In this document: piece by piece, positions 4,680 through 48,480 of the stretch
Layout: the number at the start of each line of letters is the position of its first letter
Numbering within the stretch: the first letter of the stretch is position 1
DNA from: Terrabacter sp. Root181
Lineage (GTDB): Bacteria; Actinomycetota; Actinomycetes; Actinomycetales; Dermatophilaceae
Assembly (NCBI RefSeq): GCF_001428505.1
Contig: NZ_LMHU01000001.1
Coordinates: 1,816,131-1,880,130, forward strand
Reading direction: 5' to 3'
DNA length: 64,000 bases
Made by a program: the position numbers and the translations under genes
The notes under the pieces: generated by a model
What the model was told of the DNA's origin: nothing
Database searches by the model: none
Seen by the model: the letters and a program-made list of their open reading frames with translations, nothing else

Positions 4680-4690
4680 GGCCGTGGCGT

Positions 4691-6827: not shown

Positions 6828-6845
6828 CCGCCCGCCCCCTCCCAG

Positions 6846-6911: not shown

Positions 6912-6923
6912 GGTGTGGGGGTC

Positions 6924-7295: not shown

Positions 7296-7480
7296 CGGGG
7301 TCCCTTTCGTCGGTGGATGAGCGCCCAGCATCGCCCCCGGGGGCGCCCGTCGTCTTGGACGAAGCCGACACCGGACAGGGACCGGGGACGCACCGACGCG
7401 ACGCCCGGATCCGTGGCCGCGAGCGGGTCGTGGGCCACGGGAACCGAAGGCCGCGTCGGGGTCCTGGCTACGGAGTGGGG

Positions 7481-8158: not shown

Positions 8159-8252
8159 GTCTTCTCCTAGCGTCGGCGGTGCGTCGGCGTCGCACTCGTC
8201 GGATACCTACCCCAACGAACGGCAGGCACCAGCGTTCCGGCACGGTAACGCA

Positions 8253-8280
8253 CGAAGCCACCCGCGAACGGGTGGCTTCG
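8253..8280 (-). terminator. Hairpin terminator after the aminotransferase gene
   Basis: A perfect 12-bp stem CGAAGCCACCCG / CGGGTGGCTTCG encloses a CGAA loop, 50 bp past the stop codon of the minus-strand aminotransferase and before the next minus-strand gene. There is no strong U tract. Confidence 0.75.
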
Positions 8281-8329
8281 TGGCCGGCGACACCCCCACG
8301 GCATACGCACGGAGTCGGAAAGTCTGGGG

Positions 8330-9769
8330 TCAGAGGTGGTTCTCGGCCTCCGTCAGCACCGAACGCAGCCGTGACTCGATGTCGTCGAACTGCTCCGGAC
8401 CCATGATGAGCGGCGGCGCCAGCTGGATGACGGGGTCTCCGCGGTCGTCGGCGCGGCAGTAGAGCCCCGCGTCGAAGAGCGCCTTGGAGAGGAAGCCGCG
8501 CAGCAGGCGCTCGGACTCGGCGTCGTTGAACGTCTCGCGGGTGGCCTTGTCCTTGACGAGCTCGATGCCGTAGAAGTAGCCGGCGCCGCGGACGTCGCCG
8601 ACGAGCGGCAGGTCGAGCAGCTTGTCGAGGGTCGCCTTGAAGATCGGGGCGTTCTGCTTGACGCGGTCGTTGAGGCCCTCGCGCTCGAAGATGTCGAGGT
8701 TGGCCATGGCGACCGCCGCCGACACCGGGTGACCGCCGAAGGTGTAGCCGTGCGGGAAGTACGTCGTGCCGTGCTTGAACGGCTCGAAGAGGCGGTCGCT
8801 GGCGATCATCGCGCCGATGGGGGAGTAGCCGCTCGTCATGCCCTTGGCGCACGTGATGATGTCGGGCACGTAGTCGAAGTCGTCGCACGCGAACATCGAG
8901 CCGATGCGGCCGAAGGAGCAGATGACCTCGTCGGAGACGAGGAGCACGTCGTACTCGTCGCAGATCTCACGGACCCGCTCGAAGTAGCCGGCAGGCGGCG
9001 GGAAGCAGCCACCGGAGTTCTGCACCGGCTCGAGGAAGACGGCTGCGACGGTGTCGGGGCCCTCGAACTCGATGGCCTCGGCGATGCGGTCGGCGGCCCA
9101 GCGGCCGAAGGCCTTCTCGTCGCCCTGGAGGTGCTCGGGGGCGCGGTAGAGGTTGGTGTTCGGGACCTTGTGCGCACCGGGCACGAGCGGCTCGAACATC
9201 TCCTTGGCGGCGGGGATGCCGGTGATCGACAGGGCGCCCTGGGGCGTCCCGTGGTACGCGACGTTGCGCGAGATGACCTTGTGCTTGGTCGGCTTGCCGG
9301 TCAGCTTGAAGTACTGCTTGGCGAGCTTCCACGCGGTCTCGACGGCCTCGCCGCCACCGGTCGTGAAGAAGACGCGGTTGAGGTCGCCGGGGGCGTGGCT
9401 CGCGAGGCGCTCGGCCAGCTCGATCGCCTTGGGGTGCGCGTAGCTCCACAGCGGGAAGAACGCGAGCTCCTTGGCCTGCTTGGCCGCGGCCTCCGCGAGC
9501 TCCTCGCGGCCGTGGCCGACCTGGACGACGAAGAGGCCGGAGAGCCCGTCGATGTACTCGTTGCCCCGGTCGTCCCAGATCTTCCAGCCCTGGCCCTTGC
9601 TGATGATGGGCACGGAGTGGCCGAGCCCGCCCTCGCCCCGGTCCTCGAAGACCGAGTGGCGCGTGAAGTGCATCCACAGGTGGTCGCGCGCGGCCTCGGA
9701 GTGGAGGGTGCCCGCGGGAGTGCGGCGATCCGAGGTGGGTTCCCAGACCTCGTTCGGGTTGATGCTCAT
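8330..9769 (-). CDS. Class III aminotransferase, probable putrescine/GABA-type (pyruvate) aminotransferase
   Basis: 479 residues of the PLP-dependent class III (omega-amino acid) family. Visible segments are GSGxG-like TTGGGEAVETAWKLAKQY near residue 125, the YHGTPQGALSITG loop, DEVICSFGRIG (the conserved Asp that contacts the PLP pyridine nitrogen), and the Schiff-base lysine in DIITCAKGMTSGYSPIG near residue 305. Length and segments resemble putrescine- or beta-alanine-pyruvate transaminases. Neighbours (an aminobutyraldehyde dehydrogenase, PotABCD and a succinate-semialdehyde dehydrogenase) point to putrescine or GABA as amino donor, which is inference. Its ATG overlaps the lrp stop codon in ATGA, so the two genes are translationally coupled. 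Confidence 0.9.
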   Translation of the reverse strand: MSINPNEVWEPTSDRRTPAGTLHSEAARDHLWMHFTRHSVFEDRGEGGLGHSVPIISKGQGWKIWDDRGNEYIDGLSGLFVVQVGHGREELAEAAAKQAKELAFFPLWSYAHPKAIELAERLASHAPGDLNRVFFTTGGGEAVETAWKLAKQYFKLTGKPTKHKVISRNVAYHGTPQGALSITGIPAAKEMFEPLVPGAHKVPNTNLYRAPEHLQGDEKAFGRWAADRIAEAIEFEGPDTVAAVFLEPVQNSGGCFPPPAGYFERVREICDEYDVLLVSDEVICSFGRIGSMFACDDFDYVPDIITCAKGMTSGYSPIGAMIASDRLFEPFKHGTTYFPHGYTFGGHPVSAAVAMANLDIFEREGLNDRVKQNAPIFKATLDKLLDLPLVGDVRGAGYFYGIELVKDKATRETFNDAESERLLRGFLSKALFDAGLYCRADDRGDPVIQLAPPLIMGPEQFDDIESRLRSVLTEAENHL

Positions 9770-10269
9770 CGTGTACCCCAGTTGTAGAGCTGTTTGTTGA
9801 GTTTCAGGTAGACGAACGTCTCGGTCGCCGTGACGCCCGCGAGCGGGCGGATGCGGGTCGTGAGCAGCTCGAGCAGGTGGGTGTCGTTCTCGCAGACGAC
9901 CTCGGCGAGCACGTCGAAGCTCCCGGCCGTCGTGACGACGTAGGAGACCTCCTCCATCTCGGTCAGCGCGTCGGCGACCGACGTCATGTCTCCCGACACC
10001 CGCAGCCCCACCATCGCCTGGCGCTGGAACCCGACCTGCAGCGGGTCCGTCACCGCGACGATCTGCATGACGTCGGCGTCGAGGAGGCGCTGCACGCGCT
10101 GGCGCACGGCGGCCTCGGACAGCCCGACCTCCTGCGCGATGGACGCGTACGACTTGCGCCCGTCGTGCTGTAGGAGCTCGATGATGGTCTTGCTCACGTC
10201 GTCGAGATTGACCGAGGGTCTCTTGGCACCGTTTCCCCCGGTGTTGGCCACGCCCCGAATCGTCGTCAT
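9766..10269 (-). CDS. Lrp/AsnC-family transcriptional regulator of the polyamine locus
   Basis: 167 residues. An N-terminal winged HTH (LDDVSKTIIELLQHDGRKSYASIAQEVGLSEAAVRQRVQRL) is followed by a RAM/Lrp ligand-binding domain ending VFVYLKLNKQLYNW-like. Lrp-family proteins of this type sense amino acids or related amines and usually act locally. It is the first gene of a two-gene operon with the aminotransferase and is divergent from the aldehyde dehydrogenase, so it probably controls both directions from the 113-bp gap. The ATG at 10269 is six bases after a CAGTAT box and is preferred over an ATG 48 bases upstream. Confidence 0.92.
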   Translation of the reverse strand: MTTIRGVANTGGNGAKRPSVNLDDVSKTIIELLQHDGRKSYASIAQEVGLSEAAVRQRVQRLLDADVMQIVAVTDPLQVGFQRQAMVGLRVSGDMTSVADALTEMEEVSYVVTTAGSFDVLAEVVCENDTHLLELLTTRIRPLAGVTATETFVYLKLNKQLYNWGTR

Positions 10270-10382
10270 GCGCCGATACTGACCTGTGGAACACGCTGTT
10301 GGCAAGTCCCCCCACAACTGATTCCGAAGATTTATCTCGCCAAGTCTTCACGATTGCGAAGGTATGTGTTTAGCATTCCCGC
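10270..10382. promoter_or_regulatory. Divergent promoter/operator region lrp <-> aldehyde dehydrogenase
   Basis: This is an unusually AT-rich stretch for the window. On the minus strand CAGTAT (10276-10281) lies six bases before the lrp ATG. On the plus strand TAGCAT (10371-10376) lies six bases before the dehydrogenase ATG, so both mRNAs are probably leaderless. Between them GAAGA (10326-10330) and TCTTC (10345-10349) form an inverted repeat with A/T-rich centre, spaced like an Lrp half-site pair. The operator call is inference. Confidence 0.6.
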
Positions 10383-11831
10383 ATGACTTCGCAGCCGCGC
10401 CAGCTCCGCAACTTCATCGGTGGACAGTACGTCGACCCCGACGGCGACGCGACGACCGACATCGTCGACCCGTCCACCGCACAGGTCGTTGCCACGGCCC
10501 CCGTCAGCGTCCAGTCGGACGTCGACCGGGCGTATGCGGCCGCGTCCGCCGGCTTCGAGACGTGGGGTGACACGACCCCCAGCGAGCGCCAGGCCGCCCT
10601 GCTGAAGTTCGCCGACGCCATCGAGGCACGCGCCGACGACTTCATCCGCCTCGAGGGCGAGAACACCGGCAAGCCACACGCGCTGACCCGGAGCGAGGAG
10701 ATCCCTCCGATGCTCGACCAGCTGCGCTTCTTCGCCGGCGCCGCCAGGGTGCTCGAGGGCAAGTCGGCGGGGGAGTACATGAAGGGCCACACGTCCTTCG
10801 TGCGCCGCGAGCCGATCGGGGTCGTCGGCCAGGTGACGCCGTGGAACTACCCGATGATGATGGCGATGTGGAAGATCGCCCCGGCGCTCGCCGCGGGCAA
10901 CACCATCGTCCTCAAGCCCTCCGACACCACGCCCGAGACGACGCTGCTCCTCGCCGAGCTCGCCTCGGAGTTCCTGCCCGAGGGCACGTTCAACGTCATC
11001 ACCGGCGACCGCGAGACCGGCCGCATGCTCGTCGAGCACCGGACGCCGGCGCTCGTCGCGATCACCGGCTCGGTCCGCGCCGGCATGCAGGTCGCCGAGA
11101 GCGCGTCGCGCGACCTCAAGCGCGTCCACCTCGAGCTCGGTGGCAAGGCGCCGGTCATCGTCTTCGACGACGCCGACATCGAGGCCGCCGTCGAGGGCAT
11201 CGCCATCGGTGGCTACTTCAACGCCGGCCAGGACTGCACCGCCGCGACCCGCGTCCTCGCCGGGCCACGCATCCACGACGACTTCGTCGCCGCGCTCGCC
11301 GAGTACGCCAAGGGCTCGGCCAAGGTCGGCATGCCCGATGACCCCGACGCCCTCTTCGGCCCCGTCAACAACCCGAACCAGGTCGCGCACGTCGGGGGCA
11401 TGATCGACCGCCTGCCCGACCACGCCCGCATCGAGGCCGGTGGCCGCCGCGCCGAGGGCCTCGGCGACGGCTACTTCTTCGAGCCCACCGTGCTCGCGGG
11501 CCTCCGGCAGGACGACGAGCAGATCCAGAACGAGATCTTCGGTCCCGTCATCACCGTGCAGCAGTTCTCCGACGAGGCCGAGGCGCTCGCGTGGGCCAAC
11601 GGTGTGCAGTACGGCCTCGCCTCGTCCGTGTGGACCCGCGACTTCGGCAAGGCCATGCGCATGAGCAAGCGGCTCGACTTCGGGTGCGTCTGGATCAACA
11701 CCCACATCCCGGTCGTCGCCGAGATGCCGCACGGGGGTTTCAAGCACAGCGGCTACGGCAAGGACCTGTCCATGTACGGCCTCGAGGACTACACCCGCAT
11801 CAAGCACGTCATGGCCAACATCGACTCGTGA
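10383..11831 (+). CDS. Gamma-aminobutyraldehyde dehydrogenase (PatD/PuuC-like aldehyde dehydrogenase)
   Basis: 482 residues of the NAD(P)-dependent aldehyde dehydrogenase family. The oxyanion/NAD region TPWNYPMMMAMWKIAPALAAG, the general-base glutamate in HLELGGKAP (near residue 252) and the nucleophilic cysteine in NAGQDCTAATR (near residue 286) are all intact. Together with the aminotransferase it would convert putrescine-derived 4-aminobutanal to 4-aminobutyrate. The specific substrate is inferred from similarity to gamma-aminobutyraldehyde dehydrogenases and from the adjoining PotDABC importer. It is likely transcribed from a leaderless promoter under Lrp control. Confidence 0.88.
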   Translation: MTSQPRQLRNFIGGQYVDPDGDATTDIVDPSTAQVVATAPVSVQSDVDRAYAAASAGFETWGDTTPSERQAALLKFADAIEARADDFIRLEGENTGKPHALTRSEEIPPMLDQLRFFAGAARVLEGKSAGEYMKGHTSFVRREPIGVVGQVTPWNYPMMMAMWKIAPALAAGNTIVLKPSDTTPETTLLLAELASEFLPEGTFNVITGDRETGRMLVEHRTPALVAITGSVRAGMQVAESASRDLKRVHLELGGKAPVIVFDDADIEAAVEGIAIGGYFNAGQDCTAATRVLAGPRIHDDFVAALAEYAKGSAKVGMPDDPDALFGPVNNPNQVAHVGGMIDRLPDHARIEAGGRRAEGLGDGYFFEPTVLAGLRQDDEQIQNEIFGPVITVQQFSDEAEALAWANGVQYGLASSVWTRDFGKAMRMSKRLDFGCVWINTHIPVVAEMPHGGFKHSGYGKDLSMYGLEDYTRIKHVMANIDS

Positions 11832-11833
11832 GC

Positions 11834-11862
11834 CTCGCGCCGTCCGCACCGGGCGGCGCGAG
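11834..11862 (+). other. Hairpin between dehydrogenase and potD
   Basis: A 9-bp stem CTCGCGCCG / CGGCGCGAG with an 11-base loop begins just after the dehydrogenase stop codon. It could be a weak terminator or an mRNA processing or stability element setting different levels of potD. No U tract follows. Confidence 0.5.
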
Positions 11863-11958
11863 CTCGTCTGTCGGACACGGCATCCCACCAGCAACACCAG
11901 CTCGGGTCAGCGTCGACCCTCCACCCCGACCCCCACGAAACCCCTGGAGAAGAACCCC

Positions 11959-13206
11959 ATGAACGAGAGCTCTTTCGACAAGGACAACCCGATCCTGCGC
12001 GCCGCCCTCATGCGCGGTCTCGTCAGCCGGCGGTCGGCCATGATGGGGGCGGCCGGCGTCAGCGCGGCGGCCTTCCTCGCGGCCTGCGGATCGGCCGGGA
12101 AGAGCCCCTCCTCCGGAGGCGCGTCCGGGACCGCTGCACCGGCCAAGACCGCGGCGGCGGCCCAGGACATGTCCGACACCGAGAAGATCGTCAACTGGTC
12201 GAACTGGACCGAGTACATCGACACGAGCGAGGACGGCAAGTCGCGGCCGACCCTGGACGCCTTCTACAAGAAGACCGGCATCAAGGTCACCTACAACGAG
12301 GACTACCTCGACAACGACGAGTTCTACGCCAAGGTGCGTCCGCTCCTCGAGGGCGGCAAGGACACCGGCCGCGACGTCTGGTGCAGCACCGACTGGATGG
12401 TCGCCCGCCTCATCCGCCAGGGCTACCTGCAGAAGCTCGACCTGGCCAACATCCCGAACGCGGCCAACCTCGAGGACTCCCTCAAGAACGTCGAGTTCGA
12501 CCCGGGCCGGCTGTACTCACTCCCGTGGCAGAGCGGTTTTGCCGGGATCGGCTACAACCTCAAGGCGACCGGGGGCAAGAAGATCGAGTCGATCACGCAG
12601 CTGCTCACCGACCCCGCCCTCAAGGGCAAGGTCACGTTGCTCACCGAGATGCGCGACACCGTCGGCCTCGTGATGATGGAGCAGGGCAAGAAGATCGACT
12701 CCTTCACCGATGCCGACTTCCAGGCCGCGATCGACATGATCCAGCAGGCCAAGGACTCCGGGCAGATCCTCCGGTTCACCGGCAACGAGTACACCGAGGG
12801 CCTCGCCAAGGGCGACATCGCCGCGTGCGTGGCCTGGACCGGTGACGTCGTGCAGCTGCAGTTCGACGACCCCAACATCCAGTACGCCTTGCCGGAGAAG
12901 GGGTTCACGCTCTGGTCCGACAACTTCGTCATCCCGGCGCTCGCGAACCACAAGAAGAACGCCGAGAAGCTCATCGACTACTACTACGACCCGGCCGTGA
13001 TGGCGCAGGTCGCCGCGTGGGTCAACTACATCGCGCCGGTCAAGGGCACCAAGGAGGAGCTGGTGAAGATCGACCCGGACCTCGGCAAGAACCCCCTGAT
13101 CGTGCCGACGCCGGAGGTGCTGTCCCGCGCACAGGTCTTCCGTGGTCTCACCCCCGAGGAGGAGACGAAGTACAACAAGCTCTTCTCGGGCCTGACCACA
13201 GCATGA
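11959..13206 (+). CDS. potD: Polyamine (spermidine/putrescine) ABC transporter substrate-binding lipoprotein
   Basis: 415 residues. The N-terminus has a twin-arginine motif (SRRSAMMGAAG) followed by a lipobox ending LAAC near residue 48, so this is probably a Tat-exported lipoprotein. The mature part resembles PotD/PotF: NWSNWTEYIDTSEDGKSRPT at its start, then YNEDYLDNDEFYAKV and DVWCSTDWMVARLIRQGYL. It binds polyamine outside the membrane and delivers it to PotBC. The start is supported by GGAGAAG upstream. The stop overlaps the potA start (ATGA). Confidence 0.92.
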   Translation: MNESSFDKDNPILRAALMRGLVSRRSAMMGAAGVSAAAFLAACGSAGKSPSSGGASGTAAPAKTAAAAQDMSDTEKIVNWSNWTEYIDTSEDGKSRPTLDAFYKKTGIKVTYNEDYLDNDEFYAKVRPLLEGGKDTGRDVWCSTDWMVARLIRQGYLQKLDLANIPNAANLEDSLKNVEFDPGRLYSLPWQSGFAGIGYNLKATGGKKIESITQLLTDPALKGKVTLLTEMRDTVGLVMMEQGKKIDSFTDADFQAAIDMIQQAKDSGQILRFTGNEYTEGLAKGDIAACVAWTGDVVQLQFDDPNIQYALPEKGFTLWSDNFVIPALANHKKNAEKLIDYYYDPAVMAQVAAWVNYIAPVKGTKEELVKIDPDLGKNPLIVPTPEVLSRAQVFRGLTPEEETKYNKLFSGLTTA

Positions 13207-38545: not shown

Positions 38546-38562
38546 CGGGACCCGGGGTCGCG

Positions 38563-38617
38563 GGCGTCACGCCGGCGTCACGCCGGCGTCAGGCCGGCGT
38601 CACGCCCGCGTCACGAG
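38563..38617. repeat. 11-bp tandem repeat spanning the P450 stop codon
   Basis: Four abutting near-identical 11-bp units GGCGTCACGCC start at 38563, 38574, 38585 and 38596, and a degenerate fifth ends at 38617. Each unit is itself nearly palindromic. The TGA of the minus-strand P450 lies within the fourth unit. Confidence 0.85.
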
Positions 38618-39925
38618 GAGGCGGCGGTAGGTGGGGATGAGGACGCCGCGGGCCGCCTCGCGGTCGACGACCGTCCACGGGCCGACCTCGGCGAGGGCGG
38701 CCAGGACGGCCCGCAGCTCGGCCCGGGCGACCGGCGCCCCGAGGCAGAGGTGCCGCCCCGCCCCGAACCACAGGTGCCGGTTGTCGGGCAGGTAGGGCCG
38801 GTCGAGGTCGAACGCTCCCGGTGCGGTGTTGGCCACGTACGTCAGGGCGAGCACCCGGTCGCCCGCCCTCAGGGTGCGACCGCCGACGGTGACGTCCCTC
38901 GTGACATGCCGACCGATGACCGGGGCCGGCGTCGTCACCCGCAGCCCCTCGCGGACGGCGACGTCGAGCAGGGCGTCCCGCTCCGTGCCCGTCGCGGCGG
39001 CGACCCGGGCCGCTTGCCCGGTGTCGGCGAGCAGCGCTGTCGTCCGGGCGATCGCGCTCGCCGCCGTCTCCGTGCCGGCGACGAGCAGCAGGGACGCCAG
39101 GCCCGTCGCCTCCTCCTCGGTGACCCCGAGCTCTCGGCAGCGACCGAGCACCGTGGTGCCAGCGGAGGATCGGTATGCCGCCGCGACCCCTGCGGTGAGA
39201 CCGCCGAGGATGTCCTCGGCGCGGCGCACGGTGCCGGGGGACAGGGTCGTGTCGGACTGCGTGCCGAGGGCCAGCGCGGCGAGCTCCTCTCCACGGGCGA
39301 AGACGAGACGGTAGGCGCCCCAGCCGTCGTCGTCGAGGCCCGCCGCCGCGGCCTCGCGCGCGAACGTCGCTGCGTCGATGCCGAGCATCGCGACGACGAG
39401 CCGTCCGACGACGACCCTGGCGAGGTCGGCGACGTCGACGGCGTCGCCCTCGCGCAGGTGCCGCCGGGCCGGCTCGGTCACCGGACCGGCCGCCGCCGCG
39501 ACGAGGTCGTGGGCCGCGGCGTCGGTGAAGAGGTCACGAGCCCGGGTGCGCAGGGAGTGGTGGCCGCGGCCGTCGAAGAGGTTCTCGACCCAGTCGCCCA
39601 GGACCTGCGACCAGAGGTGGCCGACGCCACCCTCCCCGAGCAGTGAGGTCGAGCGGTGGTCAACGAGCACCTGACGGATGAGCACGGGGTCACGCACGAC
39701 CCACCCGAGGCGCGGCACTCGGACGATCCCGGGCCCGACGCGCGCGGCGGCGACGAGCAGCCCCAGTCGGGGGTCGGCCGACCGGATGACGCGACGCTCG
39801 TGGCGAGCGGCCGCCCGGTTCCCGGCACGAGCGGGACCGGCGACACCGAGGCCGGCGACACCCGGGCCGGACGCGCCGGGGTCGGGGTCGCGGGCCTGAG
39901 TACGTCGGCTCAGCGCGGGTGCCAT
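38600..39925 (-). CDS. Cytochrome P450 divergent from the ole-like operon
   Basis: 441 residues. The oxygen-binding I-helix is intact (LLLVAGTETAASAI, AGxET), the K-helix ExxR appears as REGLRVTT, and the heme-ligand loop is FGAGRHLCLGAPVARAEL with the axial cysteine. The N-terminus is an Arg/Ala/Gly-rich stretch of about 45 residues before the P450 core begins (RLGLLVAAARVGPGIVRVPRLG), with no membrane anchor. It is divergent from the OleA-like gene only 70 bp away. The ATG at 39925 is six bases after TACGGT. A role in oxidising the product of the adjoining operon is inference. Its redox partner is not encoded nearby. Confidence 0.9.
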   Translation of the reverse strand: MAPALSRRTQARDPDPGASGPGVAGLGVAGPARAGNRAAARHERRVIRSADPRLGLLVAAARVGPGIVRVPRLGWVVRDPVLIRQVLVDHRSTSLLGEGGVGHLWSQVLGDWVENLFDGRGHHSLRTRARDLFTDAAAHDLVAAAAGPVTEPARRHLREGDAVDVADLARVVVGRLVVAMLGIDAATFAREAAAAGLDDDGWGAYRLVFARGEELAALALGTQSDTTLSPGTVRRAEDILGGLTAGVAAAYRSSAGTTVLGRCRELGVTEEEATGLASLLLVAGTETAASAIARTTALLADTGQAARVAAATGTERDALLDVAVREGLRVTTPAPVIGRHVTRDVTVGGRTLRAGDRVLALTYVANTAPGAFDLDRPYLPDNRHLWFGAGRHLCLGAPVARAELRAVLAALAEVGPWTVVDREAARGVLIPTYRRLLVTRA

Positions 39926-39931
39926 GCGCTC

Positions 39932-39941
39932 ACCGTAAACT
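39932..39941. promoter_or_regulatory. Overlapping face-to-face -10 boxes of the P450 and ole-like operon
   Basis: The ten bases ACCGTAAACT contain TACGGT on the minus strand (39932-39937), six bases before the P450 ATG, and TAAACT on the plus strand (39936-39941), about 55 bases before the OleA-like ATG. The two boxes share two bases. RNA polymerase should not be able to occupy both at once. Confidence 0.55.
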
Positions 39942-39995
39942 GCCCGCACGGCTCCGGAGGGGCCGAGTCGCCGAGCCAGGGAGGGCCGCGGTCGC

Positions 39996-41018
39996 ATGTC
40001 CAGTCGCCTGTCCAGCCGGATCGCCGGCGTCAGCGCCCACGTCGCCGAGCACGCCCTCACCGTCGAGGAGGTCGAGGCTCGGATCGTCCTCTCGAGCGAG
40101 GGTTTCGTGCCTCCCGTGGGGGTGCTCGGACGCCTGACGGGAGTGCGTCGCATCTACCACGCCGGTCCCGACGTCCAGGCCTCCGACCTGGCGGCGCGGG
40201 CGGCCCGCACGTCATTGGCGTCGCTCGGTCTCGACGTCGCCGACGTCGACCTGATCGTCTTCGCCTCCGCGTCGCAGGACCTGGTCGAGCCCGCGACCGC
40301 ACACATCGTCGCCGACCTGCTCGGCGCCCGGTGCCCGGTCATGGACGTCAAGAACGCGTGCAACTCCTGGCTCAACGGCGTCCAGGTCGCCGAGGCCCTC
40401 ATCGCCATGGAGCAGTACGAACGCGTGCTCGTCGTCACGGGCGAGATGCCCTCGCGCGCAGCCCGGTGGAGCGTGCGCGACGCCCGACAGTTCGTCGAGT
40501 CGGTGCCCGGCTACACGATGAGCGACGCGGGCGCCGCTGCCCTCGTCGAGCGGGCCGCACCGGGTGCGCGGGGCGAGATCCTGCACCGCTGGTTCACGGC
40601 CGAGTCGCGGCACTGGTCGGTCGGACAGCTGCCCGCCGGAGGCACCCGGCACCCCCGCGACGTCGACAAGGGCTACTTCGTCATGGACGGGGCGCGGCTG
40701 CGCCAGGCCTTCGACAGCGTCGACGTCGAGGAGATCGACCGTGCGCTCAAGTCCGACGGTCTCGGCGTGGAGGACTTCGTCGCCGTCGCCGTCCACCAGG
40801 TCGCGATGCCCTACCTCGACGTCTTCGCCGCACGCCTGGGGCTGCGCCGGGACCTCGTCGTCGAGACGCTTCCCGACCACGGCAACTGCGCCTCGGCCAC
40901 CCTTCCGCTGCAGTGGCAGCAGATCGAGCGGCGCGGCCTGGCCGAGCCGGGCCGGCCGGTGCTCCTCGTGGGCCTGGCCGGGGGCATCAGCGTCGGCACG
41001 ATGGCGGTGCGATGGTGA
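39996..41018 (+). CDS. OleA-like thiolase-fold condensing enzyme (3-oxoacyl-ACP synthase III family)
   Basis: 340 residues. Catalytic Cys122 is in VKNACNSWLNG, His267 in VAVHQVAMPY and Asn297 in DHGNCASATLPL. Glu98 in DLVEPATAHIV matches the OleA glutamate (Glu117 in Xanthomonas OleA), and the spacings 24, 145 and 30 are close to 26, 142 and 30 in that enzyme. FabH enzymes lack this glutamate and have shorter Cys-His spacing. OleA joins two fatty acyl-CoA chains head to head to a 2-alkyl-3-ketoacid. The ribosome binding site AGGGAGGG lies upstream. It is the first gene of a five-gene operon in which each following start overlaps the previous stop. Confidence 0.85.
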   Translation: MSSRLSSRIAGVSAHVAEHALTVEEVEARIVLSSEGFVPPVGVLGRLTGVRRIYHAGPDVQASDLAARAARTSLASLGLDVADVDLIVFASASQDLVEPATAHIVADLLGARCPVMDVKNACNSWLNGVQVAEALIAMEQYERVLVVTGEMPSRAARWSVRDARQFVESVPGYTMSDAGAAALVERAAPGARGEILHRWFTAESRHWSVGQLPAGGTRHPRDVDKGYFVMDGARLRQAFDSVDVEEIDRALKSDGLGVEDFVAVAVHQVAMPYLDVFAARLGLRRDLVVETLPDHGNCASATLPLQWQQIERRGLAEPGRPVLLVGLAGGISVGTMAVRW

Positions 41019-41806
41019 CCCCTCTCGCGCCGCTCGGGGCCGGCGGCGTCCGGCTCTGGGTCGTCGTCCCCGCCTTCAACGAGCAGGGCGGCATCGCACG
41101 CACGATCGCCGCCCTCGCCGCGCAGCGTGACCGCGACTTCCGCCTGGTCGTCGTCGACAACGCCAGCACCGACGGCACGGTCGCCGAAGTCGAAAGGGCC
41201 TGTGCGGCATACGATCTCGGCGTGACGATCGTCTCCGAGGCGCGCAAGGGGACCGGCGCGGCCTCCGACACCGGCGTGCGCCACGCGATCGCGCACGGGG
41301 CGACGCACGTGCTGCGCACCGACGCCGACACGCTGCCCGTCCGCGAGTGGACGGCCGTCGGTCGGCGCGCCTTCGCGGCCGGCGCCGACCTCGTCACGGG
41401 ACCGATGCGGGCGCGCACCGACGAGGTGCGCCTCCACCCGTGGGAGCGCGTCGTCCTCCCGGGCGTCATCGGGATCTGCCAGACGTTCGGGCGCTTCCGT
41501 CCGAGCAACCGGTCGCCCGAGCTGCAGGGGCCCTACCGGATGAGCCCGGGCTGCAACATCGGCGTCAGCGCCGCGGCGTACGTGGCCAGCGGCGGCTTCC
41601 CGAGGACTGCCATCGAGGAGGTCCACGAGGACCGCGAGCTCGTCAACCGGGTGCGCCGCGTCAGCACCCGGGTCGAGCACCACCGCGACCTCGTGGTGCA
41701 CGCCTCGGTGCGACGCCTGCGTGCCTACGGCCTGCGCAACACCCTGCGGTGGTACCTCGACCACGGCCACCGCCCCGACGTCGTCGACGTCCGGGTCGTC
41801 GCGTGA
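41012..41806 (+). CDS. Family 2 glycosyltransferase
   Basis: 264 residues. The GT-A nucleotide-sugar fold begins WVVVPAFNEQGGIARTIAAL, with VVDNASTDGTVAEVE and the metal-binding DxD as LRTDADTLP near residue 103. EEVHEDRELVNRVRR late in the protein supplies the acidic base-type residues of GT2. There is no C-terminal membrane pair. It overlaps the OleA-like gene by seven bases and the next P450 by four. A sugar or similar group added to the lipid product is an inference from position. It is an unusual companion for ole genes. Confidence 0.85.
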   Translation: MVTPLAPLGAGGVRLWVVVPAFNEQGGIARTIAALAAQRDRDFRLVVVDNASTDGTVAEVERACAAYDLGVTIVSEARKGTGAASDTGVRHAIAHGATHVLRTDADTLPVREWTAVGRRAFAAGADLVTGPMRARTDEVRLHPWERVVLPGVIGICQTFGRFRPSNRSPELQGPYRMSPGCNIGVSAAAYVASGGFPRTAIEEVHEDRELVNRVRRVSTRVEHHRDLVVHASVRRLRAYGLRNTLRWYLDHGHRPDVVDVRVVA

Positions 41807-43017
41807 GGGCGCTCGCCCTGACCGACCCGGGCAGCCGCTGGGAGTCCCGGCTGGTCCGTTCGGCCCACCCGGTGGTCGCGCGCCTCGTCGACGCCGCCGT
41901 GTCCCGGAGTGGTGTCGTACGCGTGCCCGGCGTCGGCGTGCTCGTGGCCGACCCGCACGTGGCACGGCAGGTGCTCACCGACACGCACGCGTTCGCGAAG
42001 AACGGCCCCGGCTCGTCGGGCGCGCTCTGGACGCCGGTCCTCGGTGACCGGGTGCTGCTCAACATGGAGGGCGACGACCACCGCACCCTGCGGCGCTCGC
42101 TCGCAGACCTCTTCTCGCCCCGCGTGGTGCGCGAGGTCTGCGACGCCGCGGCGGGTCCCCGCGTGTCGCGAGCGGCCGACCGGCTGAGGGCCGGTGAGCA
42201 CGTCGACCTCGTGGGGCTGGCGCGCGAGGTGTCCGCCGCCGTGATCGGGGTGGTCGTCGGGCTCGACCCGAGCACTCCGCCGTCGGTGCTCCTCGCGGCG
42301 AGCGACGCCGTCGAGTCGATGGTGACGTGGCGCACACGCACCATCGACGACGCGGCGGTGCAACGGGCCCGCGCAGCGCTCGCCGTCGTGCAGGACGCCG
42401 CCGAGTCCGCCCACGACGCAGCGTCGCCCGACACCGTCATGGGACGGCTGGCCCGGCAGGGCGCCTCAATCGACGAGGCGCGCTCGCTCGCGGCCGCGCT
42501 CTTCCTCACCGGCACGGGCACGGTGAGCAGCGCGCTGCCCCGGATCGCCGGCCAGCTCGCCGACGCAGGCCTGCTCGAGCCCCGGGCAGCCGTCACGTGC
42601 GACGTCGATGAGGCCGTGGCGGAGGGCCTGCGCATGACGACGCCGAGCCTCGCGACCCTGCGCCGATGCGTCCGCTCGACCGACGTCGGAGGGCTCCGGC
42701 TCCGGGCCGACGAGCGCGTCGTCGTGCTGCTGTGGTGGGCGACGCGACGGGTCGGGGGCTTCGAGCCGGGACGCCCCGCCACCGGCGACCTGCGCCACCT
42801 GTGGTTCGGGGCCGGCTCGCACTTCTGCCTCGGTGCGCCGCTCGCGCTGGCCGAGCTGCGGGCCATGACGGCGATGCTCCTCGACGTGGCGGGCGAGCAG
42901 GGGCTCGTGGTCACGTCGCGTCGCGCCGCCAGACGCGTCCTCGTGCCGAGATACGCCCACCTGACGGTGCGCAGCGGCCGGTCGGACCTGGCCACGAACG
43001 GCGGGCAGGCGGCATGA
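41803..43017 (+). CDS. Cytochrome P450 with altered I-helix, within the ole-like operon
   Basis: 404 residues. The heme loop FGAGSHFCLGAPLALAEL (axial Cys342) and K-helix ExxR (AEGLRMTT, Glu274 and Arg277) are intact. The I-helix reads FLTGTGTVSS at 234-243, so the usual acid of AGx(D/E)T is replaced by Gly239. Such changes occur in P450s that use substrate-assisted or peroxide chemistry, so the reaction may not be an ordinary hydroxylation. The start GTG overlaps the upstream stop and the end overlaps the ligase gene. No ferredoxin or reductase is encoded in the operon. Confidence 0.9.
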   Translation: MRALALTDPGSRWESRLVRSAHPVVARLVDAAVSRSGVVRVPGVGVLVADPHVARQVLTDTHAFAKNGPGSSGALWTPVLGDRVLLNMEGDDHRTLRRSLADLFSPRVVREVCDAAAGPRVSRAADRLRAGEHVDLVGLAREVSAAVIGVVVGLDPSTPPSVLLAASDAVESMVTWRTRTIDDAAVQRARAALAVVQDAAESAHDAASPDTVMGRLARQGASIDEARSLAAALFLTGTGTVSSALPRIAGQLADAGLLEPRAAVTCDVDEAVAEGLRMTTPSLATLRRCVRSTDVGGLRLRADERVVVLLWWATRRVGGFEPGRPATGDLRHLWFGAGSHFCLGAPLALAELRAMTAMLLDVAGEQGLVVTSRRAARRVLVPRYAHLTVRSGRSDLATNGGQAA

Positions 43018-44579
43018 CGGGCGAGGCCGACCTCGTCACGACGCTCCTGGCGAGGGCGGCCGCCGAGCCGCACCGCGTCTCCGTCCGCGACCACCGGGGC
43101 CGGTCGGTGACGTACGGCGAGCTCGGCACCGATCTCACGGCCGTGGCCGCGCACCTCACGACCCACGGGCTCGTGCGGGGCGACGGGGTCCTGCTCGCCG
43201 TCCGCCCCTCGCCGCGTGCCGTGGCCGCGGCCCTCGGGGTCGTCCTCGCCGGGGGAGTCGTCGTCGTGGCCGACCCCGGTGCCGGGCAGGCCCTGCTCGA
43301 CGTGCGTCGTCGGACCGCGCCGGTCCGCGCCGCGGTCGCCGACACCGTCGTCCACGCCGCCACTCGACGCCCCTTCTCGACCGTGCTCGCCCGTCTGCCC
43401 GCCACGTCGGGCCTCCAGCTGCCCGACCTCTCGGCGCCCGGCCTCGTGCACGTCGTCACCGGCCCGCGGCTGCCTGGGGTGCCGCGCTCGGCGACCCGCT
43501 GGGAGCACCTGACACGGTCCTCGACCGCGCCTGGGGTGGGTGACCCCGCACGAGATGCGCTCGTCGTCTTCACGTCGGGCTCGACCGCGGCGCCGCGTGC
43601 CGTGGTCCACACCCTGGCATCGCTGTCGGCGGGGGTCCACGCCGCCGTGTCGGCCCTCGGGCTCGACGCGGGCGCCGTCGTGCACACCGACCAGCTGATG
43701 ATCGGCCTGCCCAGTCTCGTGGCCGGGGCGGTCTGGTCGCTCCCACCGGTGACGGCGTCACCGGCAGCGTGGCTGCGCCAGGCCGGGTGGGAGTCTGCGA
43801 CCCACGCGTACGCCGTCCCGGCCAAGGTGCTCGCGGCAGCCACCCACGGACTGCCGCCGTCCGTCCGGCACGTCGCCATGGGTGGGGCTCCCGTGCTGCC
43901 GGCCACGGTGCGACGTCTGGCCCGCCTCGCGCCCGGCGTGGACGTGCGCGCCCTCTACGGGCTCACCGAGGCGCTGCCCGTGGCCGTCGCCACCGGCGCC
44001 GAGGTGCTCGCGTCACCGATCGCTCGCACGAGCCTGGGTCGCCCGCTGCCCGGCGTATTGGTGCGCATCGACGCCCCGGGTTCCGATGGGGTCGGCGAGA
44101 TCGTCGTGCGTGCCCCGCAGGCACGGCACCGTCTCGCGGGGGAGCGGCCCGACGACGAGGTGCGCACCGGCGACCTGGGCGAGCTCCTGCCTGACGGCAC
44201 GCTCCTGCTCGCCGGGCGGGCCAAGAACATGATCATCCGCGGCCAGACCAACATCTACCCCGAGCTCGTCGAGCCGCTCCTGCTCGAGCGGCTCTCGGAG
44301 CACGTCCGGGACTGCGCGCTCGTCGGGGTGCCCCACCCGGTCACGGGCGACGAACGCGTCGTGCTCGCCGTCGTCCCCGTGCGAGGCGTCACCGAGCGAC
44401 TGGCACGCGAGGCCAGCCGCCTCGTCCACCGTGCCTGGCCGGCGCTCGCCGACGAGGCCTGGCGCCCCGACGACGTCGTCGTCGTCGAGTCGGTGCCCCG
44501 TCGCGGCCGCTCCGGGGCCCTCGACCTGGAGGCGCTGCGGGCGCTCGTCACTGACGGCCGGGTGGGCACGGCGCCATGA
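43014..44579 (+). CDS. OleC-like AMP-forming ligase of the ANL superfamily
   Basis: 521 residues. The adenylation core has TSGSTAAPRAVV at 187-198, YGLTEA at 315-320, TGD at 385-387 and the hinge GRAKNMIIRG at 401-410. Two usual lysines are changed: the P-loop lysine is Arg (APR) and the C-terminal A10 lysine of SGK is Ala502 (GRSGALDLEAL). OleC converts a 2-alkyl-3-hydroxyacid into a beta-lactone using ATP. The OleC role is inferred mainly from position between OleA-like and OleD-like genes. Overlaps both neighbours in ATGA. An ordinary acyl-CoA ligase or a non-catalytic paralogue is the alternative. Confidence 0.8.
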   Translation: MTGEADLVTTLLARAAAEPHRVSVRDHRGRSVTYGELGTDLTAVAAHLTTHGLVRGDGVLLAVRPSPRAVAAALGVVLAGGVVVVADPGAGQALLDVRRRTAPVRAAVADTVVHAATRRPFSTVLARLPATSGLQLPDLSAPGLVHVVTGPRLPGVPRSATRWEHLTRSSTAPGVGDPARDALVVFTSGSTAAPRAVVHTLASLSAGVHAAVSALGLDAGAVVHTDQLMIGLPSLVAGAVWSLPPVTASPAAWLRQAGWESATHAYAVPAKVLAAATHGLPPSVRHVAMGGAPVLPATVRRLARLAPGVDVRALYGLTEALPVAVATGAEVLASPIARTSLGRPLPGVLVRIDAPGSDGVGEIVVRAPQARHRLAGERPDDEVRTGDLGELLPDGTLLLAGRAKNMIIRGQTNIYPELVEPLLLERLSEHVRDCALVGVPHPVTGDERVVLAVVPVRGVTERLAREASRLVHRAWPALADEAWRPDDVVVVESVPRRGRSGALDLEALRALVTDGRVGTAP

Positions 44580-45538
44580 GGGTCGCGGTGACGGGGGCCA
44601 GCGGTTTCGTGGGTGGTGCGGTCGTGGACCGGCTGCTCGCCCAGGGACACGAGGTGCTCGGCCTGAGCCGCCGGCCGGTCGCCCTGCGCCCGGGGCTCGA
44701 GCACCGTCGGTGGGACCTCACGACCGGCGTGCTGGCCGACCCGCCGCCGGTCGACGCCGTGGTCCACGCAGCGGCGCACGTCGACGAGTGGGACCCCTGG
44801 GCCGTCCACGAGGCCGTCACCGTGGACGGCACCCGCGCCGTCCTCGACACCTGGCCCCGGGCCAAGGTCGTGCTCGTCTCGTCGTGCAGCGTCTACCCCC
44901 TCCGGGCTCCCAGCCGCCCGCGCCACGTCTTCACCGAGGACGTCCCGGTGACGACGCGGCCGCTGTCGGCCTACTCGCGCGCCAAGGGAGCGCAGGAGCA
45001 GGTCGTCCTCGCGCGCATCGGCAGCGTCGTGCTGCGCCCGCACGCCGTCCACGGTCCCGATGACCCCACGCTCCTGCCGCGGCTCGAGCGCGCACGTCGG
45101 CACGGGCGGCTGGTCTGCCCTGGGAGCAGCGACACGCTCGTCCACCTCACGGACGTCCGACTGGTTGCCGAAGCCGCCACCGCAGCGTGCGAATCCGTAT
45201 GCGGCACAGAGGTCCTCAATGTCGCGGACGCCCGAGCCCTCCCGCTGATCGAGGTCGCGGCGGGTGTCGCGGCGGCGAACGGCTGGACCGAGCGACCCCT
45301 CCTCACGGGACCGGCGGTCGCCTGGACCGCAGCACTCGCCCTTGAGGCGACCGCCCGGCTCACCCGGGCGTCCACGCCTCCGCTGCTGACGGCGTACGCC
45401 GTCTCGCACCTCGCGGTCAGCCGCGTCCTCGACACCGCCCGGCTGCGGCAGCGGCTCGGCGTCGAGCCGGGCCCGACGGACCTGTCCCGATGGCGCCACG
45501 AGAGCACGGTCCGGGGGGCCGGCGACTCATACGGCTGA
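44576..45538 (+). CDS. OleD-like NAD(P)-dependent reductase (extended SDR/epimerase family)
   Basis: 320 residues. Rossmann motif TGASGFVGG at residues 6-14, the serine of the catalytic triad in SSCSVY near 102-107, and YSRAK at 133-137 supply Tyr and Lys. The order and length match 3-beta-HSD-like extended SDRs such as OleD, which reduces the 2-alkyl-3-ketoacid to the 3-hydroxyacid. It is the last gene of the operon. Sugar epimerases share the fold, and the operon's glycosyltransferase keeps that alternative open. Confidence 0.82.
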   Translation: MRVAVTGASGFVGGAVVDRLLAQGHEVLGLSRRPVALRPGLEHRRWDLTTGVLADPPPVDAVVHAAAHVDEWDPWAVHEAVTVDGTRAVLDTWPRAKVVLVSSCSVYPLRAPSRPRHVFTEDVPVTTRPLSAYSRAKGAQEQVVLARIGSVVLRPHAVHGPDDPTLLPRLERARRHGRLVCPGSSDTLVHLTDVRLVAEAATAACESVCGTEVLNVADARALPLIEVAAGVAAANGWTERPLLTGPAVAWTAALALEATARLTRASTPPLLTAYAVSHLAVSRVLDTARLRQRLGVEPGPTDLSRWRHESTVRGAGDSYG

Positions 45539-45588
45539 CACCCCGTCGGCACAGCGCACGCACAGGGTCCGCCACAAATGTGTGTGAC

Positions 45589-47010
45589 ATGCCCTCACTC
45601 GCCCTCCCCGAGAGCCGTGACCTCTCGGTGCCGGCCGCGTCGCGGCGCCAGGCCCTCGCCCCGACGCCGCGCTGGTGGCGGGACGCATCCGCCGTGTTCG
45701 CCTGGGGCGTCACGCTCTTCGTCGTGGCCCTGTGGGTCGTCGGAGGAGGGCTGGCCGCGTTCGGCTCGCTCACCGAGAGCCTCACCAACCTCGGCCGTCT
45801 CAGCGGGTTGCTCGCGTCGGTGCTGATGCTCCTCCAGGTCCTGCTCATGGCTCGCATCCCGCTCGTCGAGCAGGCCTGGGGACAGGACGAGCTCGCCCGC
45901 GTGCACCGGCTCGTCGGCTTCACGTCGTTCAACCTCATGCTCGCCCACATCGTCCTCATCACGGTCGGCTACAACGCCGGCACCGACCTGGGCGTCATCG
46001 CCACCTTCGTCGACTTTGTGCTGCACTCGCCAGGCATGCTGCTCGCACTCGCCGGCACCATCGCGCTCGTCATGGTCGTCGTCACCTCCGTGAAGAAGGC
46101 CCGGGCGAAGCTGCGCTACGAGTCGTGGCACCTGCTGCACCTCTACGCCTATCTCGGCGCGGGGCTCGCCCTACCGCACCAGCTCTGGACCGGGGCGGAC
46201 TTCAACACGAACGTCGTCGCGACGGTCTTCTGGTGGGGTCTGTACGCCTTCGCCCTCGTCGCCGTCCTCGTCTACCGGGTGGGGCTGCCGGCCTACCGCT
46301 CGAGCCGCCACCGTCTCGTCGTCGCCCAGGTCGTCGAAGAGTCGCCGACCGTGACCTCGGTCGTCATGACGGGTCGCCGCCTCGACCGCCTGCCCGTCCG
46401 CGCCGGACAGTTCTTCCAGTGGCGCTTCCTCGACGGTGCGGGCTGGACCCGCGGCAACCCGTACTCCCTGTCCGCCGCGCCCGACGGTCGCTCGCTCCGG
46501 ATCACGGCCGAGGCCGTCGGCACCTCGAGCGCGCGCCTCGCGACGCTGCGCCCGGGCACCAAGGTCCTCGTCGAGGGCCCCTACGGCCGCCTGCACGCCG
46601 GTGTCCGCACGAGCGAGAAGGCCGTGCTCATCGGCGCCGGAATCGGCATCACGCCGCTGCGCGCCATCCTCGAGGCGCTGCCCGCCTCGCCCGACGGCGT
46701 CGTCGTGATCTACCGCGTCGGAAGCCAGGCCGACATCGTCCTCGGCGACGAGCTGCTCGACCTCGCCCGCGCCAAGGGCGGACGGGTCGTCGCCGTCGTG
46801 GGGCACCGCAACCGTGAGCGCGCCAGCTGGCTCCCCGTCGACGTGGGACACCTCACCGACGCCGAGGCCCTGACCCGGATCGTCCCCGACATCGCCGAGC
46901 GTGACGTCTACGTGTGCGGCAACCCCGCCTGGATGGACACCGTCATCACCGCCGCCCACGAGGCCGGGGTGCCCGACGACGCCGTGCACCACGAGCGCTT
47001 CACCTACTGA
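45589..47010 (+). CDS. Ferric-reductase-like transmembrane oxidoreductase with FAD/NAD(P)H domain
   Basis: 473 residues. The N-terminal half has about six membrane helices with histidines suited to two b hemes (HRLVGF, LAHIV, YESWHLLHLYAY). The C-terminal half is a ferredoxin-reductase-type module: FAD-binding WTRGNPYSLSAAPDG near residue 285 and NAD(P)-binding GAGIGITPLRAIL near residue 347, ending VCGNPAWMDTVITAAHEAGV. It would carry electrons from cytoplasmic NAD(P)H through hemes to the outer face. It is followed by an exported FMN-binding protein and ApbE. The ATG at 45589 is used; the leader is unclear. Confidence 0.88.
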   Translation: MPSLALPESRDLSVPAASRRQALAPTPRWWRDASAVFAWGVTLFVVALWVVGGGLAAFGSLTESLTNLGRLSGLLASVLMLLQVLLMARIPLVEQAWGQDELARVHRLVGFTSFNLMLAHIVLITVGYNAGTDLGVIATFVDFVLHSPGMLLALAGTIALVMVVVTSVKKARAKLRYESWHLLHLYAYLGAGLALPHQLWTGADFNTNVVATVFWWGLYAFALVAVLVYRVGLPAYRSSRHRLVVAQVVEESPTVTSVVMTGRRLDRLPVRAGQFFQWRFLDGAGWTRGNPYSLSAAPDGRSLRITAEAVGTSSARLATLRPGTKVLVEGPYGRLHAGVRTSEKAVLIGAGIGITPLRAILEALPASPDGVVVIYRVGSQADIVLGDELLDLARAKGGRVVAVVGHRNRERASWLPVDVGHLTDAEALTRIVPDIAERDVYVCGNPAWMDTVITAAHEAGVPDDAVHHERFTY

Positions 47011-47078
47011 GTCCGCGCGGGCATCCGCCCCCCGACCCCGCGACCTGCGCGAACCGACCGAACCGAATCGAGCCCCCC

Positions 47079-47651
47079 ATGCGCCGCACCGTCCTCTGGG
47101 CCATGAGCACCCTGACCGTGCTCGTCCTCCTCTTCAGCTACAGCACGTCCCGCAGCTCGTCCGCCGTCGTGGCCGAGACCCGGCAGGTGACGACGAGCAG
47201 CAAGACGTCCGACAGCACCGGCTCGACGTCCGGGTCCTCGTCCGCCTCCTCGACCGACTCGTCCGGCCAGGAGCCGACCGACGACGCCACGACCGACTCG
47301 GGAACGACGTCGTCCGACACCAGCGGCTCGAGCGGGTCGTCGGGCTCGTCAGGGTCGACCAGCACGTCGTCGGCAGCCAAGACCTACGCCGGTGACGCGG
47401 TCATGACCCGTTACGGCAACGTCCAGGTCCAGATCACCGTCAAGGCCGGCAAGATCACGGCCGCCGAGGTGCTCCAGGTCCCGTGGAACGACCGGCGCGA
47501 CCAGATGATCAACTCGGCCGCCGTCCCGGTCTACAACCAGGAGACGGTGAGCGCGCAGTCGGCACAGATCGACGTCGTGTCCGGGGCCACCTACACGTGG
47601 GACGGCTACACGCAGTCCCTGCAGTCAGCCATCGACCAGGCCAACCTGTGA
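47079..47651 (+). CDS. Exported FMN-binding-domain protein with flavinylation motif
   Basis: 190 residues. An N-terminal signal/anchor (LWAMSTLTVLVLLFSYSTS) is followed by a 70-residue Ser/Thr/Gly/Asp linker and a C-terminal FMN_bind domain (AVMTRYGNVQVQITVKAGKI). VVSGATYTW at 166-174 matches the SGAT motif, in which ApbE attaches FMN to Thr171 through a phosphoester. The protein is probably a one-domain extracytoplasmic flavoprotein receiving electrons from the preceding membrane oxidoreductase. It is followed 34 bp later by ApbE. Confidence 0.87.
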   Translation: MRRTVLWAMSTLTVLVLLFSYSTSRSSSAVVAETRQVTTSSKTSDSTGSTSGSSSASSTDSSGQEPTDDATTDSGTTSSDTSGSSGSSGSSGSTSTSSAAKTYAGDAVMTRYGNVQVQITVKAGKITAAEVLQVPWNDRRDQMINSAAVPVYNQETVSAQSAQIDVVSGATYTWDGYTQSLQSAIDQANL

Positions 47652-47685
47652 GGCACTCTTGAGACAGGCGAGCAAGGAGCGAACC

Positions 47686-48480
47686 GTGACCCGTCCCCGC
47701 CAGACCAGCCCGATCGAGACCGCACCGACCCCCGCGCCCGCGAGGCGCGCCTGGGTGGAGCAGATCATGGGCATGCCGATCTCCCTCCACCTGCGCGGCG
47801 CCGACGTCGACGGCCCTGCCGCGCAGGAGGCCGTGGCCGGGGCCTTCCGGATCCTGCGCGAGATGGACTCGATCTTCTCGACCTACCGCGAGGACTCCGA
47901 CCTCATGAGGCTCCGGCGCGAGGAGGTCGACGTCGCGCAGTGCAGCCCCCTCGTCGAGGAGGCACTGCGCATCGGGCAGGAGGCCGAGGTCCTCACCCGT
48001 GGGGCGTTCACCACCCTGCTGCCCACCGGTGACGGCGACCTCGCGTTCGACCCGACCGGCCTCGTCAAGGGGTGGGCTGTCGACCGCGCCTCGGTGCCGC
48101 TGTCGGGACTCGAGGGGATCTCCTTCTGCATCAACGCCGGCGGCGACCTGCTCATCGGCGCACATCCCGACATGCCGACCGACGGTCCACGGGCGATCAC
48201 GTGGCGCGTCGGCGTCGAGGACCCCCTCGACCGACAGCGCATCGCGAGCACCCTGACGCTGACGCGCGGGGCCGTGGCGACCTCGGGCACGGCGGCGCGT
48301 GGGGCGCACCTGTACGACCCCGCGACGGGGAAGCTCGTGGGACGTCCGGGGTCGGTGACGGTGACCGGCCCGACCCTGCTCTGGGCCGACATCTGGGCCA
48401 CCGCCCTGTTCGTCGGTTCCGAGCTGACGGGCGAGGCCTTCGCCACGAGTGCGACCGACTACCTGTCGACGGCTCTCTGA
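47686..48480 (+). CDS. apbE: FAD:protein FMN transferase (ApbE-like)
   Basis: 264 residues. ApbE-fold features include IFSTYREDSDLMRLR, GAFTTLLPTGDGDLAFDPTGLVKGWAVDRA with the FAD-contact lysine and Asp, and GISFCINAGGDLLIGAHP. It also has TSGTAARGAHLYDPATGKL with metal and substrate contacts. It transfers FMN from FAD to a Thr in the upstream FMN-binding protein, with Mg2+. No N-terminal signal is seen, so the location is unclear: either cytoplasmic modification or a start further upstream. GTG 47686 has the ribosome binding site AAGGAG. Confidence 0.9.
   Translation: MTRPRQTSPIETAPTPAPARRAWVEQIMGMPISLHLRGADVDGPAAQEAVAGAFRILREMDSIFSTYREDSDLMRLRREEVDVAQCSPLVEEALRIGQEAEVLTRGAFTTLLPTGDGDLAFDPTGLVKGWAVDRASVPLSGLEGISFCINAGGDLLIGAHPDMPTDGPRAITWRVGVEDPLDRQRIASTLTLTRGAVATSGTAARGAHLYDPATGKLVGRPGSVTVTGPTLLWADIWATALFVGSELTGEAFATSATDYLSTAL

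Follow-up and report, generated by a model that had tools for sequence, protein, structure and literature searches.

Two acyl-CoAs are converted by the enzymes OleA, OleD and OleC to a 2-alkyl-3-keto acid, then to a 2-alkyl-3-hydroxy acid and finally to a β-lactone. Nocardiolactone reportedly depends on genes named nltABCD. The same OleA/OleD/OleC sequence is summarised in the available part of Smith et al. 2020 (PMC7064751), which also describes a cluster from Actinoplanes atraurantiacus that encodes an OleA, a glycosyltransferase, an OleC, a cytochrome P450 (P450) and an OleD, in a genome with no oleB candidate. The one OleA named from this organism was active in the authors' screen, and a hydroxylated, glycosylated β-lactone was predicted as the product. 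The lipstatin producer is listed in that text among the oleACD carriers without oleB, and the available part of PMC12141560 describes its LstA as an enzyme resembling β-ketoacyl-acyl carrier protein (ACP) synthase III (KAS III), with a Cys-His-Asn triad, that joins two acyl-CoAs to an α-branched β-ketoacid. Here we describe a compact six-gene cassette of the soil actinobacterium Terrabacter sp. Root181 (genome G000, 4.94 Mb), located at positions 38600–45538 of a 64,000-nucleotide stretch of contig NZ_LMHU01000001.1 (hereafter the window). This operon is real, conserved and partly foreseen in print; its novel element, as judged from sequence comparison, is the lineage-specific loss of the A10 lysine in a homologue of the lactone synthetase. 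We read the cassette as a tailored head-to-head fatty-acyl condensation pathway in which lactone closure has probably been lost, slowed or changed, and give this reading as a whole an even chance of being correct.

The open reading frame (ORF) listing and searches against Pfam and NCBIfam identify a divergent P450 (P450a), followed by a ketosynthase (KS), a GT2-family glycosyltransferase, a second P450 (P450b), an adenylate-forming enzyme (ligase) and a short-chain dehydrogenase/reductase (SDR). The coordinates and strands confirm the original prediction, made from the letters alone, of five plus-strand genes and a divergent P450. That prediction gave the overlaps between the five plus-strand genes (39996–45538) as four to seven bases; measured, all four junctions are 4-base overlaps (GTGA or ATGA). 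The divergent starts of P450a and KS are separated by 70 bases (39926–39995), where we presume the promoters to lie.

Empty sites in three congeners (G172, G175 and G176), with contiguous flanks whose aligned parts lie about 7 to 126 bases apart, establish the six genes as a discrete island (38546–45526, edges by eye). Its left edge lies just past the TauE stop codon and its right edge in the last SDR codons, where the sequence again resembles the empty site of G175 from about 45526 onwards (by eye). The flanks are proS-HAD-TauE on one side and ferric reductase-flavin mononucleotide (FMN) protein-ApbE on the other (proS and HAD labelled by eye). In a member of the family (G148) the island is likewise absent from this site, where TauE and the reductase lie about 0.9 kb apart. 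The KS is present in 5 of 9 genomes of the genus (one of the four lacking it is 74% complete) and in 8 of 186 genomes of the family, its own included; across the class, 33 of 394 sampled genomes contain a match at 1e-40. Its closest named relatives are from Terrabacter (93%), Terracoccus (92%), Terrabacter aerolatus (90%) and Humibacillus (86%).

Using the KS as query and one genome per species, we obtained 114 encoding stretches, the best 80 of which gave 79 distinct loci. In 69 of these the five genes follow one another as KS-GT2-P450b-ligase-SDR on the same strand. The other ten comprise four loci truncated at contig ends (L048, L069, L090, L103), three with no SDR match (L080, L086, L104), one with a partial P450b (L085) and two without GT2 and ligase (L105, L117). 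The arrangement is not due to chance, given that 69 of 79 loci share the five-gene order and that three congeners lack the block as a whole. A P450a match above 200 bits is found in 40 of the 79 loci, divergent upstream in 29 and convergent downstream in 11.

The KS (39996–41018, plus strand) contains the OleA-type glutamate to which the original prediction had pointed (Glu98, 40287–40289) along with Cys122, His267 and Asn297, and these four residues are invariant in 80 of 80 cassette KS, the window's included. Sequences with a query coverage below 55% were excluded from the cassette alignments behind this count and behind those given below for the SDR and for the heme cysteines of the P450s; alignments A1 and A2 comprise 28 of 73 and 28 of 78 sequences. 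A maximum-likelihood tree was calculated from 64 KS sequences (the window, 26 of the 79 named loci, 21 further genome stretches, 15 FabH and one Xanthomonas chain). Clustering with FabH, which had been named in advance as the finding that would speak against an OleA assignment, did not occur: 49 OleA-side sequences (43 actinobacterial cassette or related KS, five canonical OleA from oleBC loci and the Xanthomonas chain) split from the 15 FabH with an ultrafast bootstrap of 100. All 49 sequences on the OleA side have the OleA glutamate (Glu117 in X. campestris), which none of the 15 FabH has. The housekeeping FabH of G000 is a separate gene that scores 347.7 bits to the FabH model, compared to 122.9 for the KS (cut-off 292). 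The closest solved chains are 3fk5 and 3row (E ~1e-27), annotated as 3-oxoacyl-ACP synthase III, followed by the KAS III chain 4ryb (1e-26). We take 3fk5 and 3row to be Xanthomonas OleA-type enzymes, presumably the X. oryzae chain and X. campestris OleA, respectively; 3fk5 lies close to 3row in the KS alignments.

The SDR (44576–45538, plus strand) is a candidate 2-alkyl-3-oxoacid reductase. Its top NCBIfam model is OleD (NF042422, 9.1e-25), and in seven genomes of the Terrabacter/Humibacillus clade no other protein matches OleD as well. Tyr133 and Lys137 are conserved in 72 of 72 sequences, and the protein has both the Tyr/Lys pair and the Rossmann motif expected of an OleD. No OleB accompanies these enzymes, as the original prediction had claimed, and none was found elsewhere in G000 either: an OleB-domain query taken from the oleBC fusion of G172 gave nothing beyond a match of 88 residues at 32% (26.6 bits, E 7e-6), compared to 664 bits in its source genome, 402 in a member of the family and 254 in a member of the order. 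The Xanthomonas OleC model at 1e-60 gave zero matches in G000, as opposed to matches in 156 of 396 genomes of the order.

The ligase (43014–44579, plus strand; Pfam AMP-binding, 1.9e-38) was placed in a tree built from 14 of 73 aligned cassette ligases, seven from further regions, five canonical OleC, the proteins from loci L154 and L155, and 21 other adenylate-forming enzymes (L226, a 351-residue fragment, was retained; L156 and L157 yielded no ligase). The cassette ligases, the five canonical OleC (oleBC fusions), L154 and L155 form one 28-member clade with an ultrafast bootstrap of 100, separate from 20 other adenylate-forming enzymes of G000 and G172; the sister of this clade is a single domain resembling those of nonribosomal peptide synthetases (NRPS; L228, labelled by eye).

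Within this OleC clade, the A10 motif reads RHxSKxDR in the five canonical OleC, mostly GRxxKxDR in the other cassettes and GRSGALDL in the window, where it overlaps the degenerate PRRGRSGALD (44496–44525, plus strand). Outside the Terrabacter/Humibacillus clade all cassette ligases compared (66 of 66) have the lysine, as do the canonical OleC (5 of 5). In 7 of 7 clade members this position is A, V or G, and in the window it is Ala502 (44517–44519). Since the codons at this position were read for all seven members, a single sequencing error cannot explain the loss. The A10 lysine is assigned the role of stabilising the adenylation half-reaction (PMC11253843, in its available part). Because this OleC homologue lacks it, β-lactone closure is doubtful in this lineage.

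A second, presumably catalytic position has changed in the same seven genomes. In P450b (41803–43017, plus strand; Pfam 4.3e-9; heme motif FGAGSHFCLG) the acidic residue of the I-helix is glutamate in 70 of 70 sequences outside the clade and glycine in 7 of 7 inside (G239 in the window, codon 42517–42519); the I-helix glutamate has a role in oxygen activation. Of the positions at least 95% conserved outside the clade, its members depart from the conserved residue at 27 of 111 (ligase), 18 of 89 (P450b), 9 of 58 (SDR), 12 of 89 (GT2), 6 of 99 (KS) and 7 of 117 (P450a). The P450a comparison includes five clade members instead of seven, and the outgroup sequences are non-independent (for example, 10 Promicromonospora loci). 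Pairwise ratios of nonsynonymous to synonymous substitution rates (dN/dS) against six relatives are 0.25–0.29 for the ligase, 0.18–0.30 for P450b, 0.10–0.19 for the KS and 0.10–0.33 over all six genes. The low ratios show that ligase and P450b are both constrained, under purifying selection, and altered function is a simpler reading of their changes than decay.

The glycosyltransferase (41015–41806, plus strand; Pfam Glycos_transf_2, 9.7e-20) belongs to the GT-A-fold GT2 enzymes. Its DxD (RTDAD) and ED motifs are invariant in 28 aligned members, and an AlphaFold2 model (mean predicted local distance difference test score, pLDDT, 84) has a fold similar to GT-A enzymes. A structure search with this model returned the generic GT-A fold alone and indicated neither donor nor acceptor. 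P450a (38600–39925, minus strand; Pfam p450, 2e-14) probably starts at the ATG at 39925, so this end is approximate, and contains the heme motif FGAGRHLCLG as well as AGTETA and EGLR. Both P450s retain the heme cysteine, P450a in 41 of 41 sequences and P450b in 77 of 77. P450a was also considered as a P450-derived glycosyltransferase activator (TIGR04515), a family that we assume to have lost the heme cysteine. This assignment was rejected, given a score of 61.5 bits against a cut-off of 343 and the intact cysteine.

From these data we infer the reactions, their order and the product as follows. The OleA-type KS would condense two acyl-CoAs to a 2-alkyl-3-keto acid, which the OleD-type SDR would reduce to a 2-alkyl-3-hydroxy acid. 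This hydroxy acid is a well-founded intermediate, and the steps leading to it are likely. One or two P450s would oxidise an acyl chain, and the GT2 enzyme would attach a sugar, a step that is likely in view of the GT2 gene. In most relatives the OleC-type ligase would close the β-lactone; in Terrabacter and Humibacillus, where the ligase is without the adenylation lysine, closure has probably been lost, slowed or changed. The main product would then most probably be an open-chain lipid, a 2-alkyl-3-hydroxy acid that has been oxidised and glycosylated, or else a compound formed in an altered reaction of the ligase. A more specific version, which we judge to be unlikely and offer tentatively, holds that the OleC homologue of Terrabacter and Humibacillus has evolved into a lactone-synthetase clade member that does not adenylate, and that the operon makes mycolic-acid-like oxidised, glycosylated 2-alkyl-3-hydroxy acid glycolipids by a head-to-head route that is independent of Pks13 and involves no β-lactone.

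The original prediction favoured a β-lactone as end product. Its core of OleA, OleC and OleD is borne out by the trees and the SDR family, as are the absence of OleB and the inclusion of P450 and GT2 genes in a conserved cassette; the β-lactone endpoint is weakened by the missing A10 lysine. A working OleACD pathway that ends in an oxidised, glycosylated β-lactone would require that the loss of the lysine is compensated. We consider this possible, if somewhat unlikely. The ligase groups with OleC and is under purifying selection, and the regions T187–P194, Y315–E319, T385–D387 and R402–P416, presumably motifs A3, A5, A7 and A8, are kept in 28 aligned ligases. Moreover, the same enzyme types are predicted to make such a compound in Actinoplanes (PMC7064751, in its available part). 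On the other hand, a lysine that is invariant in 66 of 66 other cassette ligases is absent from 7 of 7 in the clade, and the ligase deviates at 27 of 111 conserved positions compared to 6 of 99 in the KS.

The altered ligase may also couple the acid to another nucleophile, such as an amine or a sugar hydroxyl, in the manner of the amide bond synthetase McbA rather than that of a lactone synthetase. McbA is the closest solved relative both by single-sequence search and by fold, and three reduced relatives of the cassette carry another ligase in place of the OleC-type one. The loci L105 (Psychromicrobium, 6359–13166), L117 (Herbiconiux, 7411–12255) and L150 (a genome of the order, 3043–11010) contain a KS-P450b-SDR core without matches to the cassette ligase or GT2. 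Instead they encode a ligase related to F390 synthetase (TIGR02304; 374, 348 and 289 bits, respectively; cut-off 252), and among the loci scanned matches to this family are confined to these three. Because this ligase replaces the OleC-type enzyme, there are apparently other ways to activate the acid that KS and SDR form, possibly to other ends. The tree, which was calculated without McbA, groups the window's ligase with OleC as opposed to 20 other adenylate-forming enzymes of G000 and G172, McbA is not the top match in a profile search where NRPS and CoA ligases head the PDB list, and the island has no gene that would supply an amine. We therefore regard McbA-like coupling as quite improbable. 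The reduced variants possibly represent a separate undescribed pathway; L105 also encodes a single protein with ATP-grasp and acetyltransferase domains, and L150 a GT21 glycosyltransferase. A standalone F390-type ligase that compensates within the clade was rejected, since TIGR02304 matches occur in 0 of 10 genomes (seven with the island and three congeners without).

Several observations weigh against our preferred reading of an OleA-type pathway with altered closure. Family scores are low: the KS matches generic KAS III (PRK09352, 149 bits) better than PRK09258 (129.6 bits, cut-off 285), a model to which the canonical OleA of L138 scores 447.5 bits; the ligase matches generic PRK06187 (126 bits) better than PRK09274 (115 bits) and scores 77.8 bits to the Xanthomonas OleC model (cut-off 900), for which the canonical OleC of L138 itself reaches just 254; and the SDR scores 87.7 bits to OleD, below the cut-off of 580 that none of the seven clade genomes passes. 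OleC-clade membership of the ligase is hence not visible from family scores alone and emerges from the tree. The KS tree has FabH as its sole outgroup. The low dN/dS of the ligase implies that this enzyme still has a function, so a lactone formed by a lysine-independent route is possible. Finally, the open-licence literature, in the portion of its best-ranked listings that was available, names neither chemistry nor product for this cassette type. The generic KAS III model at the top of the NCBIfam list could also mean that the KS is a FabH-like decarboxylative enzyme with a polyketide- or fatty-acid-type product, but this is very improbable given the conserved Glu98, the split from FabH with a bootstrap of 100, the OleD- and OleC-type partners and the lack of a carrier protein in the island. 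Equally improbable is a decaying remnant: two residues held to be catalytic are lost (in ligase and P450b), P450a is the only gene missing in two of seven clade members (L039 and L078), and the whole island is absent from three congeners, but the window retains six open frames with near full-length matches in relatives, exact 4-base couplings and dN/dS of 0.10–0.33 in all six genes.

Directly downstream of the island the window encodes a ferric reductase-like flavocytochrome, an FMN-binding protein and ApbE (45490–48480). These genes were dismissed as part of the pathway because congeners without the island retain them. Clustering of 1350 candidate ORFs outside the six genes, from 30 of the 79 loci, revealed no further conserved pathway gene among the top 25 clusters. 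Those that could be recognised by eye were ilv genes, a pterin-dehydratase-like protein and an ATP-binding cassette (ABC) ATPase; many of the remaining clusters resemble antisense shadows of these. The cassette adjoins branched-chain amino acid genes (named by eye) in Promicromonospora, Cellulosimicrobium, Oerskovia, Isoptericola, Actinotalea and relatives (L070, L095, L112, L065, L054 and others). Both ilvD and ilvB are matched in 24 of the 79 loci, and at least one ilv gene in 31; this neighbourhood could supply a branched acyl starter or merely be a shared site. OleA-side KS with the OleA glutamate also occur in L154–L157, L031, L034, L036 and L038, with no GT2 match in the stretches examined. 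In L154 and L155 the ligase falls with canonical OleC but the KS with cassette KS, which hints at mixed ancestry.

The cassette is spread over many actinobacterial genera, yet published work has outlined no more than its enzyme set. Since β-lactones are covalent enzyme inhibitors, the product class is of practical interest. Operons with and without the adenylation lysine, together with congeners that lack the island, provide a natural experiment in which genotype and lipid product can be compared.

Among the described systems, lipstatin biosynthesis shares a KAS III-like condensing enzyme with a Cys-His-Asn triad, but LstAB is a heterodimer of two KS subunits (PMC12141560, in its available part) and the island has one KS gene. 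The other KS genes of G000 are just FabH and one distant KAS III-like match (L160, G000:C1:384494-385324; 77.9 bits to the FabH model; absent from the KS trees for want of a KS match), so the two-KS arrangement of lipstatin is not found. McbA is close to the window's ligase by single sequence and by fold, but this ligase groups with OleC. We take K483 of McbA to be its A10 lysine. A K483A mutant of McbA has been crystallised with AMP and acid (PMC6282839, in its available part). The oleABCD olefin pathway, with an oleBC fusion in Micrococcales, has OleA-, OleC- and OleD-type enzymes in common with the island, which differs by the absence of OleB, a KS just 24–27% identical to five canonical OleA, and the added GT2 and P450s. 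Canonical oleABCD loci with an oleBC fusion were observed in L138 (from G172, the congener without the cassette, at a different location), L139, L140, L141 and L144, and two genomes (G429 and G553) carry both cassette and canonical pathway. In the main text of the ole distribution paper PMC7158056, as far as available, P450, glycosyltransferase and Terrabacter do not occur. The original prediction knew of no described pathway with this set of genes; the available text of PMC7064751 nevertheless reports the same enzyme types and predicts the same product class. By this published description, not by sequence, the Actinoplanes cluster is the same in enzyme types and in the absence of oleB. It is listed as OleA, GT, OleC, P450, OleD, which may be the gene order and which recurs as KS-GT2-ligase-P450-SDR in L145, L152 and L153, and it has one P450. 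The window differs by the order GT2-P450-OleC-OleD, by a second, divergent P450, and by a ligase without the A10 lysine.

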